Assembly: GCF_000165485.1 (NCBI RefSeq)
Contig: NC_014623.1
Location: 5,474,893 to 5,538,892 of the forward strand
Direction of reading: 5' to 3'
Origin: Stigmatella aurantiaca DW4/3-1
GTDB lineage: Bacteria; Myxococcota; Myxococcia; Myxococcales; Myxococcaceae
DNA: 64,000 bases
Within the stretch, counting starts at the first letter, position 1; each line of letters begins with the position of its first letter. Both the position numbers and the translations under genes were made by a program. The notes under the pieces are model-generated. The model saw only the letters and a list, made by a program, of their open reading frames with translations. It searched no databases and was not told the DNA's origin. Positions 6,248 through 45,544 of the stretch are shown here, piece by piece.

Positions 6248-7255
6248 CTACTGTCCCGCGGGCTGCGCGGGGGCCGGCGCCGCGGGGGCCGGCGCCGCCG
6301 CCGCCGGGGGGGTGGGCACCGGGGCCGCCACCGCTGGGGCGGCCGGAGCCGCCGGGGCCGCATCAGGGCCCCCCAGCTGGCGCTTGGCCGAGTTCAGGCG
6401 CGCGCGCATCGCCCCCAGGTACTGGGTCGCCGGGTAGGTGGCGATGGCATCACGCACCGTGGCCAGCGCCTTCTCGGTCTGATTGGTCTCCTGGTAGGAC
6501 TGGGCCAGCAGCACCATGGCGTAGTCGCGCGTCTTGGAGCGCTTGTCCCCATCGACGAAGCGGGCCAGGAGCGGCACGGCCTGATCGTGCTTGCCGAGGT
6601 TGTTGTAGGCGGCGCCCAGGAAGAAGGACGCATCCAGCGCGTCCGCCTCGGAGGGGTTCATCGCCATGAAGCGCGCGAGATCCTCCACCGTGCCCTTCAT
6701 GTCGTTGCGGCGGAAGGCGGCCTTGCCACGCTCGAAGGCGGAGTCACCGATCTCCTTGCGCAGCAGGGCCGCGCGATCGTTGAGTGCCTGACGCTCCAGC
6801 CCCGACAGGCGCGTGGTGTCCAGCTTCACCAGCGCGTCGATGCCCTTGAGCCGCTCGTCTCCCGGCAGCGTCGTCATCAGCTTGTAGACCTCGGCCGCGG
6901 AGCGCTGAGCGCCCTGGTTGGCGGCCAGCTCCCCGCGCTGCTTGTCGAGCTCCGAGGTCAGGTCGGTCACCATCTTCTCGAGCCGCTCGCGCTCGGCGCC
7001 GGCCGTGGAAGTGCGCGCATTGCTGATGAGCAGCGCGCCGCCCGCGGCCAGAATGGCGAAGAGGGCGTAGGCCACCCCCGAGGAGATCCACTGCCGCTTC
7101 TGGAAATCCTCGTGGCGCTTGCCGACGGCCTTCACCTCGGCATGCAGGTTCTTCAGCAAGTTGTCGGTCTTGATGACGAGGTTGCGGGCCTCGATCACTT
7201 CCTTGCGGATCTCCGACAGTTCCTTGTCAACCTCTGGCTTTTGCTCGGATGCCAT
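6248..7255 (-). CDS. TPR-containing membrane protein with Ala/Pro-rich tail
   Basis: The start is placed at ATG 7255 (AGAAAG 6 nt upstream); ATG 7261 is possible. The roughly 335-aa product begins with a coiled coil ([20 protein letters not shown]), then a membrane helix ([19 protein letters not shown]). Helical TPR-like repeats follow (about 170-285; [60 protein letters not shown]). The final 40 residues are almost only Ala and Pro. The repeats are probably periplasmic protein-binding units. A role in a cell-envelope complex is inferred; the partner is unknown. Confidence 0.8.
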
Positions 7256-7370
7256 GGACATCTTTCTGGTGGGCCCGGATACGACTTCGACCGGCTCGCG
7301 CATCTTAAAAGTTCCCCCGACGGATCAATGAGTTTCCGGCAGCGGAACAGGGTTTGGAGAAAACTCATTT

Positions 7371-7412
7371 CCGGGCGCTTGCCCAGTGGCAGGCAACAGA
7401 GCAGGCGCCCGG
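7371..7412. terminator. Nested hairpin, probable terminator of the barrel gene
   Basis: CCGGGCGC (7371-7378) pairs with GCGCCCGG (7405-7412). Inside, TTGCC can pair with GGCAA. It lies just after the stop of the minus-strand gene 7420-8106 and before the TPR gene. Confidence 0.55.
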
Positions 7413-7419
7413 AGGTTGG

Positions 7420-8106
7420 CTAGAAGGCGGATCTCCCGGGCTGGGAGGGGCCCGGGGGGAATGTGTAGGTCACCCCCAGGGCGAACCAACTCCCCCCCGC
7501 ATTGAAGGTGCCGAACTTCCTGCCCTGGGACTCCACCGCGCCCCGGGCCAGCAGCCACCGGTACTCGGCGGTGAGGCCCCAGACGGGCGTCAAGCGCAGG
7601 GTCGCCCCCGCGGTGGCCCCCCAGGCCTGGGTGACCGTCTCCTTGGGCGACTGCCCCTCGAAGGCCGCGGAGGCCAGCAAGGGCCCCGCCAGGATCCCCG
7701 CGAATGGCACCAGCCCCTCGGGGCCCACGTCCAGGGCGCCCTGGAAGCGCACCCCCACCAGGGCCCCGTAGGCGGCCGTGGTCAGCCGGGGCTGGCCCGT
7801 GAGCTGCAACCGTTCCAGGGTGGCAAACAGGTCGATCCCCACCTCCACGAGGCCGGTGATGCCATACGCGAAGGAGGCCATCCCGATGGGACTGCCCCGG
7901 GAGCGCTGAGCGGGCGCCAGTCCCGCGTTCTCCGGCCGGGATTCGTAGCGGTCATAAAAGGTGTTGTTGGCCACGAGCCGCCACCCGCCCTGCACGGTGA
8001 TGCGGCCCACACCCTCGGTGGGGGGCAGCATGCCCTCCTCGGCGAAGGCGCACGGGGCCGCGAGGACGGCGGCGAGGGCCAGGCTGCTGCACATCCTCCC
8101 GCGCAT
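7420..8106 (-). CDS. Outer-membrane beta-barrel protein
   Basis: ATG 8106 gives a signal peptide (SSLALAAVLAAPCAFA) and a 228-aa product. The mature part is rich in amphipathic beta strands with alternating aromatic and small residues (AAYGALVGVRFQGALDV, GATAGATLRLTPVWGLTAEYRW) and ends in a strand, SWFALGVTYTF, close to the C-terminus. This is typical of small outer-membrane barrels; no enzymatic motif is seen. The frame stays open upstream to 8307, but the first 67 codons are better explained by an overlapping 51-aa gene in another frame, whose TGA overlaps this ATG (TGATG). Confidence 0.8.
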   Translation of the reverse strand: MRGRMCSSLALAAVLAAPCAFAEEGMLPPTEGVGRITVQGGWRLVANNTFYDRYESRPENAGLAPAQRSRGSPIGMASFAYGITGLVEVGIDLFATLERLQLTGQPRLTTAAYGALVGVRFQGALDVGPEGLVPFAGILAGPLLASAAFEGQSPKETVTQAWGATAGATLRLTPVWGLTAEYRWLLARGAVESQGRKFGTFNAGGSWFALGVTYTFPPGPSQPGRSAF

Positions 8107-38995: not shown

Positions 38996-39877
38996 TCAGC
39001 TCACCACGGGGAGCGGATAGCCCTGCGCGGGCTTGCCCACCCCCGCGGCCTCGTTCATGCGGCCCGAGCGGAACGGCTCGAGATCCAGCGCCACGAACTG
39101 GAAGCCCAGGGCCTTGAGCGCGCGGTTGATCTCCAGCCGCACGTCCCCGGACAGGAACCGGCCATACTCCTCCTCCGCCAACTCGAGCCGCGCCACCTGC
39201 TCGTGGTAGCGCACGCGGAACTGGCGAAAGCCCATCCGGCGCAGCTCGGACTCCGCGCGGGCGATCTGGAACAGGCGCTCGCGCGTCACCGACGTCCCAT
39301 ACGGAATGCGCGAGGCCAGGCAGGCCATCTGCGGCTTGTCCCAGGTGGGCAACCCCAGGTGGTGGCTCCACGCACGGATCTCCTCCTTGGTCAGCCCCGC
39401 CTGGGCCAGGGGTGACTGAACGCGGTGCTCCTGAGCGGCCTTGTGCCCCGGGCGGTGATCCTTGAAGTCGTCCGCGTTGAAGCCGTCGAGCACCACCGCG
39501 TAGCCCAACGCCTGACGCCGGGCCTCACACAAGTCGTACAGCTCCGTCTTGCAAAAGTAGCAGCGGTTGGTGGGGTTGGCGGCGTACTGGGGATTGGCCA
39601 GTTCGTTGCTCGTCAGCACCTCGTGGCGGGCACCAAAGCGGGCCGCCAGCTCCCGCGCCTCCTGCTCCTCCTCGGGGGCCACCGACGCCGAGAGCGCCGT
39701 CACCGCCAGCGCCCGCTCGCCCAGCTCCTCGACGGCGACCTTCAGCACGAACGTGGAGTCCACCCCTCCGGAGAAGGCGACCAGCGCCGTGCCATGGGCC
39801 CGGATCGCCGCGCGCATGGCCTCCAGCTTGGGACGGGAGGAGTCGCACAGGGCCTGGATCCGTTCGGGGCTCAGCAT
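38996..39877 (-). CDS. larE: ATP-dependent sacrificial sulfur transferase LarE
   Basis: 293 aa. PP-loop ATPase motif VAFSGGVDSTFVLKVA (about 33-48), NRCYFCKTELYDLC (about 103-116), PQMACLASRIPYGTSV (Cys about 184) and YHEQVARLELAEEE match LarE. By family knowledge LarE sulfurates the nickel-pincer precursor, donating its own cysteine sulfur; the Cys in ACLASR lies at the site reported for the sacrificial Cys in Lactobacillus LarE (from memory, alignment not run). larA, larB and larC are not in the window, so this could be a distant sulfur-insertion enzyme. AGGAG 7 nt upstream of ATG 39877. Confidence 0.93.
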   Translation of the reverse strand: MLSPERIQALCDSSRPKLEAMRAAIRAHGTALVAFSGGVDSTFVLKVAVEELGERALAVTALSASVAPEEEQEARELAARFGARHEVLTSNELANPQYAANPTNRCYFCKTELYDLCEARRQALGYAVVLDGFNADDFKDHRPGHKAAQEHRVQSPLAQAGLTKEEIRAWSHHLGLPTWDKPQMACLASRIPYGTSVTRERLFQIARAESELRRMGFRQFRVRYHEQVARLELAEEEYGRFLSGDVRLEINRALKALGFQFVALDLEPFRSGRMNEAAGVGKPAQGYPLPVVS

Positions 39878-39976: not shown

Positions 39977-40687
39977 CTACTTGCGCTTCGCGCCCTTCTT
40001 GGCGCTCGTGGGCTTGGCCACGCGGGCCGCGCGGGTGGCCGGCCGGGACTTGGTGCCCTTGCCTGGCTTGTCGGCCTTCGGCTCCACGCGCCGCGCCTTC
40101 TTGGGCTGGGGGTTGGCCTTCATCTTCTTGCCGGTGATGATCTTCAGCTCCTCGGAGGTCATGTAGCCGAGGTCCAGCAGGGCCTGGAAGATCTTCGCGG
40201 CGCCATCCTCCACGCTCTCGGTGTCCGAGTGAATCGTCACCTCGGGAGAAGTGGGCGGCTCGTACGGCTCGGTGATGCCGATGAAGTTGGGGATCTCCCC
40301 GCTCAGGGCCTTCTTGTACTTGCCCGTGGAGTCGCGCTCGATCAGCGTCTCGGTGGGACAGTCCACGTAGACCTCGACATAGCGGCCGATGATCCGGCGG
40401 TTCTCCTCGCGGACGCTCTTGTAGGGGCTCACGCAGGGCACGAGCACCGCGACGTTGTTGCGCGCCAGCAGCTGGGCCACATACCCCACCCGGCGAACGA
40501 TGGTGGAGCGCTCCTCCTTGCTGTCGCCCAGCCCCTGCCAGAGGTCCTGGCCAATCTCACCCTCATCCAGGGTCTCCACCTGGCGGCCAACCTGACGCAG
40601 CCGTGCGGCAATGTAGGCGGCGATGGTGCTCTTCCCGGTGCCATGCATGCCGGTCAGCCAAAGCGTGAAACCAGTGGTGCTGGGCAT
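39977..40687 (-). CDS. cysC: Adenylylsulfate kinase-like protein with Lys/Ala-rich tail
   Basis: 236 aa from ATG 40687. P-loop LTGMHGTGKSTIAAYIAARL (about 11-30) with GMHGTGKST for the usual GLSGSGKST; VSPYKSVREENRRII, YVDCPTETLIERDSTGKYKK and FIGITEPYEPP match CysC. However, the APS-binding LDGDNVRxxL block reads LDEGEIGQDL, so the usual Asp/Arg contacts are altered and the substrate may differ. The last about 55 residues are basic and low-complexity (KKARRVEPKADKPGKGTKSR), like histone-H1-type tails. No sulfate-assimilation genes are near. A strong promoter lies upstream. Confidence 0.8.
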   Translation of the reverse strand: MPSTTGFTLWLTGMHGTGKSTIAAYIAARLRQVGRQVETLDEGEIGQDLWQGLGDSKEERSTIVRRVGYVAQLLARNNVAVLVPCVSPYKSVREENRRIIGRYVEVYVDCPTETLIERDSTGKYKKALSGEIPNFIGITEPYEPPTSPEVTIHSDTESVEDGAAKIFQALLDLGYMTSEELKIITGKKMKANPQPKKARRVEPKADKPGKGTKSRPATRAARVAKPTSAKKGAKRK

Positions 40688-40758
40688 AGAGTGCTCACTC
40701 CCTGCGCGCGAAGCGAAGTCTCGCTCCATCTGTGCGCGGCGGATCAAAAGACGCGCGC

Positions 40759-40866: not shown

Positions 40867-41328
40867 TTACAGCGGAACCCCCCGATCCTGAAATTCTCCC
40901 CCCCGCCACCAATAAAGCCGGGCCGCCTCGGCCCGCCCCCGCGCCACATTCACTACAAGGTAAGAAGTTTCCGGTAGCAGTGGGATTCCGTCCGGAGCGG
41001 CTGCCTGGCGGTCCTCGGCCGACAGCAAGGCCACCCCGTCGGTGTGAGAGTGAAACACACATGCAATCTGCTCATTCCGGGCATCGGCCTCGAGGTTCAG
41101 CGCCAGCCACTCCCGGGGGTCGAACAGGAACGCGGTGCGGGCGGAGCGGGGAAACCGCCCGGGCTCCCGCGTGTGGTAACGATCATAGGCGTTGAGGAGG
41201 CACCGGACGCGCCATGCTCCCCCCGGGCCCGCGCGGAGGAGCACCCCACAGCCCTCCAGGGGGTAGCAGGCCTCCAGGTGCCGGAGCACTTCCGATAAGT
41301 CCTCGGGCAGCTCGCCGCTCACCGGCAT
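40867..41328 (-). CDS. JAMM/MPN+ metalloprotease (Mov34/JAB type)
   Basis: 153 aa. The full JAMM zinc motif is present: Glu25 in PLEGCGVLLR, then His93-Ser-His95-x7-Ser103-x2-Asp106 (VFHSHTDGVALLSAED). This is the active form of the domain; the family cleaves isopeptide or peptide bonds after ubiquitin-fold C-termini (for example Mec+, which releases cysteine from CysO). ATG 41328 overlaps the end of the pseudo-E1 gene by 10 nt, and the gene is the last of the four-gene unit. Its likely substrate is the neighbouring MoaD-like protein, or that protein linked to cysteine or a target. Confidence 0.93.
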   Translation of the reverse strand: MPVSGELPEDLSEVLRHLEACYPLEGCGVLLRAGPGGAWRVRCLLNAYDRYHTREPGRFPRSARTAFLFDPREWLALNLEADARNEQIACVFHSHTDGVALLSAEDRQAAAPDGIPLLPETSYLVVNVARGRAEAARLYWWRGGEFQDRGVPL

Positions 41329-41867
41329 TTCGCACAGCGCCGCAGGGCCATGTCCTCCACCTGGCCAGGAGCCGTGCACCACCGGCCGCCCAGCGCCGGC
41401 CCCTGTCCGAGCCGCAGCCGCTGAAAGAGCAAGGCCCCGAGCGCTCCCAGCGCAATCCCCAGCACCCCCGTGGGCGGAGGCCCCAGCGTTCGGACCGTCT
41501 CCCCGAAGCACCACACGCACCCAGCGCTTCCACGGAACACCACCCCGCCCCGCTCGCCGCCTCCCCCGAGCGCCACCCAGGGCGCCGCGCCTCCCCAGGC
41601 GGCGGGCAGCTCGGCGAGCCGACCCTCGGCCTCTGTCCCCAGGGCGTCCGGGTTGACCTCCGGCAGCACCCGCGCAAGCACCTCAGCCCCGGGAGCCCCC
41701 ACGTCCCCCGCGCCGACCAGGAACCCGGGGGCCGCGGGACCCAACCTCGTTTCCGAGGCCAGGAGGGGGGTGCCCCCCGAGGCCAGGTAGGCGGCGGCCG
41801 TGAGCCCGGCAGGCCCGGAGGCTTCCAGCCGCGCAGAGCGGCAGAGCGGATCGTCCCTCCGGGCCAC
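41319..41867 (-). CDS. Pseudo-E1: degenerate ThiF-like protein
   Basis: 182 aa from GTG 41867 (GGAGG upstream inside moaD-like gene). I align it by eye with the neighbouring E1. ARLEASGPAGLTAAAYLA matches ARVLVVGVGGLGCPASLA; GAPGAEVLARVLPEVNPDAL matches the helix carrying the ATP-site Lys; WVALGGGG matches VIDATGG. CVWC (117-120) and CAKC (178-181) keep the zinc pairs, and GPPPTGVLGIALGALGALLF matches GPLAGWVGTVQAMLALERL. The nucleotide Gly-rich motif (now SGPAGL), Arg, Lys61 and Asp102 equivalents are lost, so it should not adenylate. It is positioned as a partner subunit or scaffold for the E1. Confidence 0.75.
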   Translation of the reverse strand: MARRDDPLCRSARLEASGPAGLTAAAYLASGGTPLLASETRLGPAAPGFLVGAGDVGAPGAEVLARVLPEVNPDALGTEAEGRLAELPAAWGGAAPWVALGGGGERGGVVFRGSAGCVWCFGETVRTLGPPPTGVLGIALGALGALLFQRLRLGQGPALGGRWCTAPGQVEDMALRRCAKCR

Positions 41868-41871
41868 CGCC

Positions 41872-42144
41872 CTACCCTCCGGCCATGGCGGAGATGAGGG
41901 TGAGCCGGTCCGAGTCCTTCACGGGCGTCTCCAGATCCTGGAGGCCGCGGATGTCCTCGTCATTGTGGAAGATGTTCACGTAGCGGCGCAGGGCACCCTT
42001 GCCGTCGAGCAGCCGGGAACCAATCCCCGGAAAGCGCTTCTCCAGATCGCGCAACACCTCTCCCACGGTCGCCCCTTGGGCCTGCACCTCGCCCTTGTTC
42101 CGGGTGAAGCCCCTCAGGGGCGTAGGGATGTGGACCTTCGCCAT
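41872..42144 (-). CDS. MoaD/ThiS-like ubiquitin-fold sulfur carrier
   Basis: 90 aa from ATG 42144 (GGGAG upstream), beginning MAKVHIPTPLRGFTRNKGEV, with VGEVLRDLEKRFPGIGSRLL, VNIFHNDEDIRGLQDLETPV and DRLTLISAMAGG. It is a beta-grasp protein of the MoaD/ThiS/CysO type and ends exactly in Gly-Gly, so no processing is needed before activation. The family is adenylated at the C-terminal Gly by E1-like enzymes, then thiocarboxylated or conjugated. TGA of the E1 gene is 2 nt before this ATG, and its own TAG is 4 nt before the pseudo-E1 GTG. Molybdopterin genes are not near. Confidence 0.93.
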   Translation of the reverse strand: MAKVHIPTPLRGFTRNKGEVQAQGATVGEVLRDLEKRFPGIGSRLLDGKGALRRYVNIFHNDEDIRGLQDLETPVKDSDRLTLISAMAGG

Positions 42145-42146
42145 GC

Positions 42147-42860
42147 TCAGCTCCCGTACGCGGTGAGCCCCGGCACTCGGCCTGGGGCACAGCTTGGACA
42201 GTCCGGCTCGCGGTGCACGCGCACCGTCCGCCCCTCGATCACCTCTCCATCGAAAACATGCAACAAGGCCTCGCCCCGCGCGAGACGGGCCTCCCCCGTG
42301 AGCCGCTCCAGCGCCAGCATGGCCTGCACTGTGCCCACCCACCCCGCCAGCGGGCCCAGCCTGCCCTCCCGCTCCCCCGGGGAGGCTGGGTTGGGCGAAG
42401 AGGGCGTCCGCTGCCAACAGCGCAGGCACGGTCCTTCCGGATCCACGCGCAGGGCCTGCCCCCGCATGCGCTGCACGCTCCCATGTACCAAGGGCACGCC
42501 CGTGAGCACCGCCACGTCCGACAGGAAGAACGAAGTGGCCGTGCCCCCGGTGGCATCGATGACCAGCTCGTGCGCGCGAAAGAGCGCCTCGGCGTTGTCC
42601 GCGTTCACCCGTTCGGGGATCGCCTCGGTGCTCAGGCCCGGAAAGGCCCGCGTCAGCCCTTCGGCGGCGGACTCGGCCTTCCACCGGCCCGCGTCCGGCG
42701 TGCGGTGCCAGGGCTGATGGGCGAGGTGGGCGGCGTCCACCCGGGCTGGATCCACCAACGTCAGGTGCCCTACCCCCGCGTGCGCCAGCGCGAGCGACGC
42801 CGGGCATCCCAGGCCGCCCACCCCCACGACCAGCACACGCGCCTCCCGGAGGTGGCTCAC
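42147..42860 (-). CDS. ThiF/MoeB-type E1 activating enzyme
   Basis: 237 aa from GTG 42860 (GGAGG 8 nt upstream, which decides the start; the upstream part of the open frame is a shadow). The Rossmann-like nucleotide site is ARVLVVGVGGLGCPASLALA (7-26), acidic LVD37, Lys61 in GRWKAESA, and VIDATGG with Asp102. Zinc pairs CLRC (145-148) and CPSC (221-224) close the fold. The Arg that usually precedes Q in NLxRQ appears as HQPWHR. It should adenylate the C-terminal Gly of the adjacent MoaD-like protein. First gene of the four-gene unit. Confidence 0.92.
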   Translation of the reverse strand: MSHLREARVLVVGVGGLGCPASLALAHAGVGHLTLVDPARVDAAHLAHQPWHRTPDAGRWKAESAAEGLTRAFPGLSTEAIPERVNADNAEALFRAHELVIDATGGTATSFFLSDVAVLTGVPLVHGSVQRMRGQALRVDPEGPCLRCWQRTPSSPNPASPGEREGRLGPLAGWVGTVQAMLALERLTGEARLARGEALLHVFDGEVIEGRTVRVHREPDCPSCAPGRVPGLTAYGS

Positions 42861-42985
42861 GTGACACTCCTCCCATTCAAATGCTGCCCCACCCGGAGCC
42901 GTCCGAATATCCTGCCGCACCGCGACGTCCCGAACCTGCTTCCCACTCCCACCCTCCAGCCCCTTGGGCTCACCTGACTGGACAT

Positions 42986-43387
42986 ATGAAAAAGCTGACT
43001 GGCGTGCTCGCCCTTTCGCTCTCCCTCTTCGCCGGCTGCCGCAGCGCGGGCGATTCCTCGGTCCGCCCGGATGCATCCGCCCCCGCGCAGACGGGCACGT
43101 CCCAGGACGCCCTTGCGGGCGATGCGGGCATCGCCCCCGCCCCCTCGGAACCCGCCGCCCTGTCCGAGGCGGAGCGTCAGGCGAAGGAAGCCTGCCTGGA
43201 CCAGTGGTTGAAGGCCCGGAAGCTCGACCCCTACGGCAACGACGAGGGCACCATGTACATGGGGGGCACACCGCTGTTCAACGAAGCCACGGGGGAGACG
43301 AAGGACCGGCTGGAGTACGTCTACCAGAAGCAGCCCGAGTCCAAGAAAGCCTGCCTCGAAGCAGGCGCGGCCCCCCAGGGGAAGTAA
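42986..43387 (+). CDS. Lipoprotein of unknown function
   Basis: 133 aa from ATG 42986. The signal MKKLTGVLALSLSLFAGC has a clean lipobox. The mature chain starts with a low-complexity Ser/Ala/Pro stretch (about 20-65), then a short helical part with two Cys (KEACLDQWLKARKLDPYGND and QPESKKACLEAGA). No family is recognised. It diverges from the E1 operon across a 125-nt gap. The 90-nt gap after it contains GC-rich, partly pairable sequence (CGCCCTC with GAGGGGGCG) that could be a terminator. Confidence 0.75.
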   Translation: MKKLTGVLALSLSLFAGCRSAGDSSVRPDASAPAQTGTSQDALAGDAGIAPAPSEPAALSEAERQAKEACLDQWLKARKLDPYGNDEGTMYMGGTPLFNEATGETKDRLEYVYQKQPESKKACLEAGAAPQGK

Positions 43388-43477: not shown

Positions 43478-44764
43478 GTGACGGACACCGGCCTCGCCCG
43501 AGACGAGGAAAAACCCTCCAACGATCTGCGCGCGCGGGTGCGCGCGGTGCTGGAGCGGCGCAATCTCACGGACACCATCTCCGCCGAGCAGGCCTCCGCC
43601 TCGTGGGAGCAGGACCGTTTCGTGGCCCGGGCCCGGGCCCTGTTCTACGCGCGGATGATGTTCCTGACGCTGGGCCTGCTCATCTTGGCCGTGCCCGAGT
43701 GGTCTGGGTACTTCGGGCTCACGGGCCCGCTGGCATTCGGCGGCTACTTCACGATGCTGCTCTACAGCGTCGCCAACTTCCTGGTCATCGATCACCCCAA
43801 GGCAGGCCGCTGGGTGACGTACTTCACGCTCTGCTTCGACCTCATCATCATGGTCGTGCTGATCGTCAAGCCGCAGGTCGGCGGTGGCCTCCAGAGCCCG
43901 CTCCTGGCCACGCAGCTGCTGTTCACCACCCTCTTCGCCATCCTCTATCCCAAGCCGCTGGCCATCCTGCCGCCGCTGTTGGCCCTGCCCATCACCACCC
44001 GGCTGGACCTGCTGCTCAACCGCTCCGTCACGGCCATCGAGCTGCTGACGCTGCTGTGGTACTCGGGCCTCAACTTCATCATCGTCTACGTGGTGGTGTA
44101 CCTGAACGAGCGGGAAGCCGCCGCGCACCGCGAGGTGGTGGAGCTCCAGGGAGATCTCAAGGAACTGGCCATCGTGGAGGAGCGCAACCGGCTGGCGCGG
44201 GAGATCCACGATGGGCTGGGCGCCTCGCTCTCGTCGATGATCATCCAGTCCGAGTACATCCTGAGCCTGGCGAAGGATGGCTCGCTGCGCGCCGAGATCG
44301 GCGAGCTGAAGGCCACCGCCGAGGAGTCCATCGAGGAGCTGCGCCGCAACCTGCGGATGATGCGCGAGGACTTCGAGCTGACCCAGGGCCTGGAGGACTA
44401 CGTGAAGACGTTCCGGGAGCGGACGCAGCTGGACATCCGCTTCGAGCGCTCGGGCCTGCCCCGAAAGCTGTCTCCGGACGCCCAGCTGGCCCTCTTCCGC
44501 ATCCTCCAGGAAGGCCTGTCCAACACCGCCAAGCACGCCCAGGCCCAGGTGGTGAACGTGAAGCTCGACTTCACGGAGGACCGGGTGCACCTGACGGTGC
44601 GCGACGACGGCAAGGGCTTCGATCCGAAGAAGACGCCGCGGGGCCACTACGGCCTGCTGAACATGCGCGAGCGGGCCATGAAGCTCGGAGGCGAGGTCAT
44701 CGTGGACTCGTCCCCCGGGGCAGGCGTGCTCGTCTCCTTTTCCATTCCCTGCAACGCAGAGTGA
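43478..44764 (+). CDS. Membrane sensor histidine kinase (NarL-partner type)
   Basis: 428 aa from GTG 43478, start uncertain (weak ribosome site). After a soluble N-terminus come about six membrane helices (about 55-210; MFLTLGLLILAVPEW, FTMLLYSVANFLVI, YFTLCFDLIIMVVLI, LLFTTLFAILYP, FIIVYVVVYLN). The HisKA_3 motif is ERNRLAREIHDGLGASLSSM with the phospho-His near 243, and an HATPase carries EGLSNTAKHAQ and VRDDGKGFD. This is the NarX/DesK class. The membrane bundle is likely the sensor. The stop is 15 nt from the response regulator GTG, forming a cognate pair. Confidence 0.93.
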   Translation: MTDTGLARDEEKPSNDLRARVRAVLERRNLTDTISAEQASASWEQDRFVARARALFYARMMFLTLGLLILAVPEWSGYFGLTGPLAFGGYFTMLLYSVANFLVIDHPKAGRWVTYFTLCFDLIIMVVLIVKPQVGGGLQSPLLATQLLFTTLFAILYPKPLAILPPLLALPITTRLDLLLNRSVTAIELLTLLWYSGLNFIIVYVVVYLNEREAAAHREVVELQGDLKELAIVEERNRLAREIHDGLGASLSSMIIQSEYILSLAKDGSLRAEIGELKATAEESIEELRRNLRMMREDFELTQGLEDYVKTFRERTQLDIRFERSGLPRKLSPDAQLALFRILQEGLSNTAKHAQAQVVNVKLDFTEDRVHLTVRDDGKGFDPKKTPRGHYGLLNMRERAMKLGGEVIVDSSPGAGVLVSFSIPCNAE

Positions 44765-44779
44765 TTGACCGGAGTTTCC

Positions 44780-45544
44780 GTGGACGCCCCTCCGATTTCG
44801 GCCCCCGCCCCCATCCGGGTCTTCGTGGTCGAGGACCAGACCAAGATCCTCAAGAACCAACTTCGCCTGCTGGAGGGCCATCCGGACATCGAGATCATCG
44901 GCACCGCGCTGTCCGGTGAAGCCGCGCTCGAGGAGGTGTCCAAGACGGTCCCGGACGTCATCCTCCTGGACCTGGGGCTGCCGCGCATGAGCGGCATCGA
45001 CGTGACGCGGGAGGTGAAGGCCACCCACCCCAAGGTGGAGATCCTCATCTTCACGATCTTCGACGAGGAGGACAAAGTCCTCGAGGCCGTGAAGGCGGGC
45101 GCCTCCGGCTACCTGCTCAAGGGCGCGCCGGTGGACAAAATCATCGAGGCCATCAAGGAGGTCCGGGCCGGAGGGACGGTGATTCAACCGAACCTGGCCC
45201 GCAGGCTGCTGCGCCACTTCCGCGTGGATCCAGACAGTGGCCCGGTTCCCACCGAGCCGAAGCCCGCCGCCCCTGAAACCGGGCCCGCCGCCTCTGCTGG
45301 GCCAGTGCCCTCTGGCGAGGACACTCCCGATGCGGACGCGCTGCTCAAGCCGCTGTCGGACCGGGAGCGGGAGATCCTCCAGCTCATCGCCAAGGGCGTC
45401 TCCAACAGCGAAGCCGCGCGGCTGCTCAACCTGAGCAAGGCCACCATCCGCACGCACCTGGAGCACATCTACCGCAAGCTCGAGGTGACCAACCGCGTGG
45501 AGGCCGTGACCGAGGGCATCCGCAAGGGCCTCATCTCCGTCTAA
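44780..45544 (+). CDS. NarL/FixJ-family response regulator
   Basis: 254 aa from GTG 44780, chosen because GGAG lies 5 nt upstream; TTG 44765 is in frame. Receiver: VFVVEDQ, Asp64 in VILLDLGLPRMSG, Thr in IFTIFDEED, and Lys in GYLLKGAP. A Pro/Ala linker (about 150-175) joins a LuxR-type helix-turn-helix: LSDREREILQLIAKGVSNSE, LLNLSKATIRTHLEHIYRKL. Activated by the upstream kinase; it binds DNA as a dimer. Targets are unknown. The linker is longer than in most NarL proteins. Confidence 0.95.
   Translation: MDAPPISAPAPIRVFVVEDQTKILKNQLRLLEGHPDIEIIGTALSGEAALEEVSKTVPDVILLDLGLPRMSGIDVTREVKATHPKVEILIFTIFDEEDKVLEAVKAGASGYLLKGAPVDKIIEAIKEVRAGGTVIQPNLARRLLRHFRVDPDSGPVPTEPKPAAPETGPAASAGPVPSGEDTPDADALLKPLSDREREILQLIAKGVSNSEAARLLNLSKATIRTHLEHIYRKLEVTNRVEAVTEGIRKGLISV

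Follow-up and report, generated by a model that had tools for sequence, protein, structure and literature searches.

A sulfur-carrier operon of Stigmatella aurantiaca with a putative split E1 and an activation half that appears to be broken

The 64,000-nucleotide stretch of the Stigmatella aurantiaca DW4/3-1 genome analyzed here (NC_014623.1, positions 5,474,893 to 5,538,892; referred to as the window) carries an operon encoding a ubiquitin-like carrier, a JAMM metalloprotease and two E1-related proteins. Our reading, to which we give a probability of about two in three, is that this operon derives from an ancestral sulfur-carrier machine whose E1 was divided between two proteins, that in the window its activation half is broken, that the carrier and the JAMM protease are kept, and that the carrier would be charged in trans. 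In the following, G codes stand for the genomes compared and L codes for loci; G000 is the window genome and G077 that of a sister species. The features of the operon are:

42147..42860, minus strand: E1-derived protein of 237 amino acids (PF00899, E 1.4e-46), arm-less, with a degraded adenylation site and the zinc CxxC pairs kept.
42144..42147, minus strand: junction of the E1 and carrier genes, the site of a TusA gene in 67 of 126 profiled loci; none here.
41872..42144, minus strand: ThiS/MoaD-like ubiquitin-like carrier of 90 amino acids with the C-terminus AMAGG (PF02597, E 1.1e-13).
41319..41867, minus strand: pseudo-E1 remnant with its N-terminal RYSRQ arm deleted in frame (family profile and arm-motif scan).
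About 40867..41328, minus strand: JAMM/Mec-like metalloprotease (PF14464, E 7.2e-16) with Glu and HxH-x7-SxxD intact.
39977..40747, minus strand: APS-kinase-like gene of the CysC family (PF01583, E 1.5e-44; TIGR00455 above its cut-off).
38996..39877, minus strand: LarE, an ATP-dependent sacrificial sulfur transferase (TIGR00268, 316 bits, cut-off 150).

The first-pass annotation, a motif reading of the window, had described a complete activate-and-release set with an active E1. Much of its inventory was borne out: coordinates and Pfam matches agree with four genes in one direction that overlap or lie at most 4 nt apart (2 nt between E1 and carrier, 4 nt between carrier and pseudo-E1, an overlap of about 10 nt between pseudo-E1 and JAMM), the carrier does end exactly in Gly-Gly, and the JAMM motif is intact, as it is in all 90 JAMM matches scanned, the window copy included. 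The GxGGLG motif, Lys at the K86 position of MoeB and the zinc CxxC pairs are kept as well. The active E1 did not hold up, and the set is incomplete in this genome, with the E1 active-site residues, the pseudo-E1 arm and TusA all lost.

The E1 was examined in an alignment of 48 rows, including the window and 46 relatives out of the 81 other arm-less loci, with MoeB numbering set by PDB alignment of one relative. The Asn70, Arg73 and Asp130 positions are kept in 46 rows and changed only in the window and G077, and the Cys187 position is kept in 45 and lost in the window, G077 and L178; at these four positions the window reads His, His, Gly and Gly. MoeB Arg73, Lys86 and Asp130 are described as counterparts of UBA1 active-site residues in PMC12355090, and PMC13139853 gives Asp130 as a predicted Mg ligand. 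Arg73 and Asp130, taken together as the mark of an active MoeB/ThiF-type E1, are replaced in the window by His and Gly. At the K86 position the window keeps Lys and G077 has Arg. The Asp102 cited as a sign of activity corresponds to the Asp127 position, which is Asp in all 48 rows, degraded ones included. The window also retains GxGGLG and the zinc CxxC pairs, of which two Gly and three Cys positions are present in 48 of 48 rows and the fourth Cys in 47. Because the Asn70, Arg73 and Asp130 positions are lost, we infer that the window E1 is dead, its ATP/Mg site having lost residues. The view that this genome has a fully functional set of active E1, carrier and JAMM can point to the retained GxGGLG, K86 position and zinc pairs; given the four lost E1 positions, the deleted pseudo-E1 arm and a genome without TusA, it is very improbable. 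An ordinary MoeB of the moa pathway was considered as well and rejected, the operon E1 being arm-less and degraded and a separate rhodanese-MoeB as well as MoaE being encoded elsewhere in the genome.

Of the 145 genomes available for the order, 113 gave a carrier match in a six-frame search. The 126 carrier loci profiled with family-built models comprise L001-L050 and L125-L204 minus the repeats L003, L004, L033 and L035; 12 further carrier matches, with E 1.7e-13 or weaker, fall outside this set. Operon partners were present at 104 of the 126 loci, and the other 22, where the carrier had no partner or just ThiG, were left out of the operon count. In the family of the window the usual order is E1, TusA, carrier, pseudo-E1, JAMM, APS-kinase-like gene and LarE. 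The four window genes, as a search across relatives such as Corallococcus, Myxococcus, Pyxidicoccus, Archangium and Hyalangium records confirmed, occur together in most relatives, and their losses follow a pattern. A complete myxobacterial operon is also found at L236 (BNCN01000004.1), a record titled Comamonas sp. KCTC 72670; the title is possibly a mislabel.

One sign of a split E1 is the distribution of the N-terminal MoeB arm that bears the arginine finger. At 82 loci of the order the E1 lacks this arm, and at 80 of them a motif scan placed the arm no more than 250 nt after the carrier gene, inside the pseudo-E1, and nowhere else in the stretch scanned, which reached from 800 nt before the E1 to 900 nt past the carrier. 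Reading by eye, together with a looser motif scan, identified the pseudo-E1 of L039 and the arms of L037 and L166. The two loci without any arm motif are the window and G077. The pairing expected of a heterodimeric E1, an arm-less catalytic chain with an armed inactive chain, is therefore present at 80 of 82 loci and absent from these two. Ten loci of the order have an armed E1 and none of them a pseudo-E1, while E1-less loci with at least 4.9 kb upstream showed neither a pseudo-E1 nor an operon TusA (0/10 each); two loci with a pseudo-E1 and no E1 lie at a contig edge, with 87 and 137 nt of sequence ahead of the carrier. Of 19 loci from outside the order, L261 alone carries a pseudo-E1, which is armed, and the five with an armed E1 have none.

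The third window frame (41867-41319) matched nothing at E 1 or better in Pfam, NCBIfam and PADLOC. A profile of 38 pseudo-E1s, that of the window among them, matched ThiF/MoeB in the PDB at 2e-18 to 2e-19, the wider series running from ThiF, MoeB and Uba4 (about 2e-15 to 2e-19) to SAE1 (about 6e-6). When the profiles of pseudo-E1 and E1 were compared with each other, the match was moderate (94.2 probability over 69 columns); the PDB sequence and fold searches were stronger. For the full-length pseudo-E1 of L007 the predicted model had a mean predicted local distance difference test score (pLDDT) of 93.1, and its best fold matches were ThiF and MoeB (both Z 18.6; root-mean-square deviation 3.0 and 2.8; 199 and 200 residues aligned), tied with SAE1 (Z 18.2; 2.8; 193 aligned) and followed by APPBP1 (17.4; 2.8; 189). 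SAE1 and APPBP1 are the inactive halves of eukaryotic E1 pairs. By its sequence profile the third frame is thus a member of an E1-like family, with a fold taken from the predicted models of relatives' copies.

The most conserved pseudo-E1 positions are those of the arm (R10, R13, Q14, G21, G24 and Q25) and three cysteines, C139, C142 and C200, which are invariant in the 38 pseudo-E1s of alignment A1, including that of the window. Short pseudo-E1s (L037, L140, L158 and a set termed f2) were omitted from A1. Those of L140, L037 and six of eight aligned f2 copies measure about 88-123 amino acids and retain the arm; the aligned f2 copies have no Cys position in common. The model of one 122-residue copy had a mean pLDDT of 88.4, with Uba4, ThiF and MoeB as top matches (E 1.5e-4 to 5e-4). 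The R13 position aligns with MoeB Arg14, which like ThiF Arg11 is presented in PMC13139853 as an arginine finger acting from the neighbouring subunit. The pseudo-E1 could instead be a structural or specificity subunit, contributing to stability or to carrier or TusA docking, with an arm for dimerisation and not for catalysis. The invariant cysteines of A1, the ratio of nonsynonymous to synonymous substitution rates (dN/dS) of 0.15 still seen in the arm-less remnant and the report, in the same paper, that the finger is non-essential in MoeB/ThiF all fit this alternative. It accounts poorly for short copies that keep the arm and drop much else, for f2 copies without a shared Cys, and for the lack of any pseudo-E1 at loci with an armed E1, and we regard it as rather unlikely. 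Donation of the arm by the pseudo-E1 would fit these last patterns.

In relatives a TusA gene sits between E1 and carrier (77 amino acids, PF01206 1.9e-18 in L007; 90 amino acids, 2.3e-14 in L045). None is found at this place in the window or G077, and none anywhere in the window genome, for which every candidate was scored. In a survey of the 145 genomes, for some large ones of which part of the candidates was scored, 15 were without TusA: G091, G124, G004, G138 and G140 as well as ten of the window's family (G000, G077, G078 and G079; G045, G047 and G048; G073, G074 and G075). These ten, with every candidate scored, had zero matches, and all have a lost or decayed activation module. Each of the 67 loci with an operon TusA comes from a genome in which TusA was matched twice or more. 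In seven intact genomes the second TusA has conserved surroundings with RidA, DsbA-like and ABC genes; this copy is gone, with its neighbours kept, in six of six genomes (G000, G077, G078, G045, G048 and G074) and present in three of three intact ones (G080, G043 and G076). On a tree of three operon-adjacent proteins from 23 genomes, the losses within the family fall in three genera: four genomes of the window's genus form one clade, three genomes form another, and G045, G047 and G048 account for one or two events. At least three lineages of the family have thus seen joint loss or decay of E1, pseudo-E1 and TusA, with carrier and JAMM retained. LarE and the kinase were considered as parts of the lost module and rejected, as both persist in the eight E1-less loci of the family. 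LarE may serve a nickel cofactor, since a LarC-family match (PF01969) was found in 13 of 13 genomes asked.

Taken further, these distributions could mean that bacteria independently evolved a heterodimeric E1, the catalytic chain having lost its arginine-finger arm and a dedicated, progressively miniaturised pseudo-E1 (down to about 90-120 amino acids) supplying it, for a sulfur carrier that is TusA-fed in many lineages, and that the activation module was lost as a unit together with the distant second TusA, with the window midway in this loss. We consider this extended proposal evenly balanced between right and wrong.

Comparison of the window with G077 gave dN/dS values of 0.07 for the carrier, 0.24 for JAMM, 0.06 for LarE and 0.12 for the kinase; carrier and JAMM are under purifying selection. 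The E1 value was 0.45 as opposed to 0.13-0.24 in intact pairs, with relatively more amino-acid changes than in four intact pairs (p 3e-4, 4e-4, 0.004 and 0.08). The value of 0.15 for the pseudo-E1 remnant refers to its C-terminal 109 codons (intact pairs 0.11-0.28). The window species and G077 have lost the arm through different deletions, both in frame. In a plain neutral simulation both E1 frames remained stop-free in 528 of 5000 runs, so that open frames alone prove little. Both proteins could have become a new non-catalytic complex, for instance a carrier chaperone, and so be more than relics; frames open in two species, in-frame deletions, dN/dS below 1 and retained zinc cysteines would agree with this. 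The excess of amino-acid changes in the E1, the overlap with the JAMM start, which alone could hold the pseudo-E1 frame open, and the sister species G078 and G079, which have neither gene beside the carrier, make it improbable. Decay of the activation half remains the preferred reading: the activation enzymes look dead, and their frames are perhaps held because they are coupled to the JAMM start or because the proteins retain a structural function.

Sulfur-related genes are frequent beside the carrier. TusA was found there at 67 of the 126 loci, the APS-kinase-like gene at 81, LarE at 53 (a count held down by many loci too short to show it) and a CysM-type synthase at 24. The CysM-type gene is part of the operon in six genera of the window's family besides the window's own (G084, G085, G088, G089, G091 and G128) and in further families of the order. 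The G017 copy shares 65 percent identity with the copies of G039 and G005; in each of 12 genomes of the window's family, the window genome among them with 35 percent, the best CysM match reached 35-38 percent. The initial statement that no moa, thi, CysM, CysK or E2 gene lies alongside left out two sulfur genes, the APS-kinase-like gene and LarE, which follow on the same strand, and its exclusion of a CysO-CysM-Mec cassette holds for the window and not for relatives, where the same operon contains a CysM-type gene. Its proposal of sulfur transfer reversed by the JAMM suits the ancestral system, given TusA, CysM-type, APS-kinase-like and LarE genes beside relatives' carriers, but not a set that is incomplete in this genome. 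These neighbours also speak against the carrier being a ubiquitin-like protein tag with the JAMM as deconjugase and sulfur secondary. That idea draws on a carrier that comes close to the SAMP1 cut-off of 60 with 54.7 bits and on a JAMM that matches desampylase weakly (30.6 bits against a cut-off of 130). In a search confined to the four window proteins no stand-alone E2 family was matched, and we judge the tag a distinctly improbable explanation.

Several observations weigh against a split, TusA-fed E1 lost as a module and replaced in trans, in addition to the reported dispensability of the arginine finger. The loci and losses are related by descent, and counts such as 80 of 82 are not independent trials. 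Outside the order, two of three loci with an arm-less E1 (L262 and L263) have neither pseudo-E1 nor arm motif, and for this reason arm donation, as deduced from sequence, looks common yet not universal. G139, of another family, has carrier and JAMM and no operon E1, yet two TusA; G091 and G004 have E1 and pseudo-E1 but genomes without TusA. G139 complicates the picture, and so do those genera of the window's family that have a CysM-type gene. The E1 frame of the window is open with dN still below dS (Fisher 1e-4), and since the remnant is constrained as well, both E1 and remnant may retain some role. Finally, in G074, which has carrier and JAMM and no operon E1, the best ThiF match scored 202.6 bits versus 283-295 in the other genomes of the family asked, and a trans activator may be absent there.

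In the ancestral mechanism that we propose, the arm-less catalytic E1 chain would pair with the armed pseudo-E1, and this pair would adenylate the carrier at its C-terminal Gly-Gly. Sulfur would then be passed on by TusA, at loci that have it, or by another donor, to yield the carrier thiocarboxylate. The sulfur would be taken by an acceptor, possibly the CysM-type synthase in operons that include it and a different enzyme elsewhere, and the JAMM would cleave the resulting adduct, freeing the carrier, and in some lineages would also trim precursors. The window would have this machine with an E1 minus its ATP/Mg-site residues, a pseudo-E1 minus its arm and a genome minus TusA. Since carrier and JAMM stay under purifying selection with the activation half broken, the carrier is probably charged in trans by the rhodanese-MoeB encoded elsewhere (G000 C1:7421718; rhodanese 8.4e-19, ThiF 4.9e-84), by analogy with mycobacteria, where MoeZR charges CysO (PMC3227635).

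At 18 of the 104 operon loci the carrier does not stop at Gly-Gly, the extension ranging from one residue to a fusion with pseudo-E1, E1 or JAMM, because of which the JAMM may also mature carrier precursors in some lineages. The carrier runs on past Gly-Gly into the pseudo-E1 in L045 and L178 and into the E1 in L162; L040 and L193 have a longer tail before or into the JAMM, and other loci show one to three extra residues. The window genome encodes a second carrier, 66 percent identical, at L031 (G000 C1:8498000-8512000, carrier 7193-7465) beside a HAD hydrolase and a ThiG homologue (PF05690, 2.9e-57); no E1 was seen nearby, and the locus looks like a thio-biosynthetic cluster borrowing its E1 from elsewhere. 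G078 and G079 likewise have a carrier with ThiG.

The APS-kinase-like and LarE genes adjoin the operon in relatives too. For the former, the alignment of many homologues begins only at residue 21; its PRK00889 score of 203.8 lies under the cut-off of 244, and it reads DEGE where APS kinases have DGD, so its substrate may differ. On the other side of the operon, a divergent lipoprotein-like gene (42881-43387) and a histidine kinase gene (43478-45544) keep their position beside it in many relatives; a response regulator gene is next after the histidine kinase gene in the window.

Among known systems, defence modules of the cyclic-oligonucleotide-based antiphage signaling system (CBASS) and Bil types with E1, E2 and JAMM were rejected, with no E2 or CD-NTase partner match among the four window proteins; the window E1 matches E1-E2 models, and the carrier match there was at chance level (E 0.028). 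L082 (G000 C1:2965000-2978000) combines a ThiF-family match with one gene like those of nucleotidyltransferases and one like those of JAMM proteins, a trio which we take from its sequence to resemble type II CBASS. The best reading is a known class of sulfur-carrier operon, rows 4c/4e of Iyer et al. 2006 (PMC1779556), with a split E1 and an activation half that is dead here. That article lists ThiS/MoaD, JAB and E1 sulfur operons in Table 1 rows 4b-4e, which share with the present operon class a carrier, a JAB protease, a rhodanese-less E1 and SirA/TusA with an adenylylsulfate kinase (4e) or a cysteine synthase (4c), whereas a second, arm-bearing pseudo-E1 is not in the class description as accessible. 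The words 'Myxococcus' and 'PP-loop' are absent from its main text. The window has a ThiS/MoaD-like protein, JAB and E1 in one operon and neither TusA (4e) nor cysteine synthase (4c), and we take it for a degraded member of that class. Titles and abstract openings, with subscription journals mostly outside this search, contained no description of a heterodimeric or inactive E1 in such operons, of TusA with LarE and JAMM, or of TusA with MoaD in Myxococcus.

The CysO-CysM-Mec system with MoeZR resembles the operon, according to PMC3227635, in its GG-ending carrier, its JAMM, the CysM-type synthase found in many relatives and an E1 able to act from elsewhere; it differs in that the relatives have their own E1 pair and often an operon TusA. 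A dedicated CysM is lacking in the window genome, where the best match of 35 percent contrasts with the 65 percent among the operon copies of G017, G039 and G005. With the E. coli MoeB and ThiF homodimers, the relatives' E1 shares fold and catalytic residues and the pseudo-E1 the arm sequence, but there each subunit has both arm and active site, whereas here these are split over two proteins. SAE1/SAE2, APPBP1/UBA3 and yeast Tcd1/Tcd2 likewise combine an inactive with a catalytic half, and in Tcd1/Tcd2 the arginine finger comes from the inactive half (PMC12355090 and PMC13139853). The present putative pairs, known from genes and single-chain models, are far smaller, would act on a bacterial carrier and in some lineages have a pseudo-half reduced to about 88-123 amino acids. 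Their example warns that motif reading can show a complete E1-carrier-JAMM set though the E1 active site is lost, and three or more natural losses help to find what the carrier does without its own E1. If the split E1 is real, its natural size variants offer a direct test of what the arginine finger does, a matter still unsettled, and it would be a bacterial parallel to the eukaryotic SUMO and NEDD8 E1 pairs.

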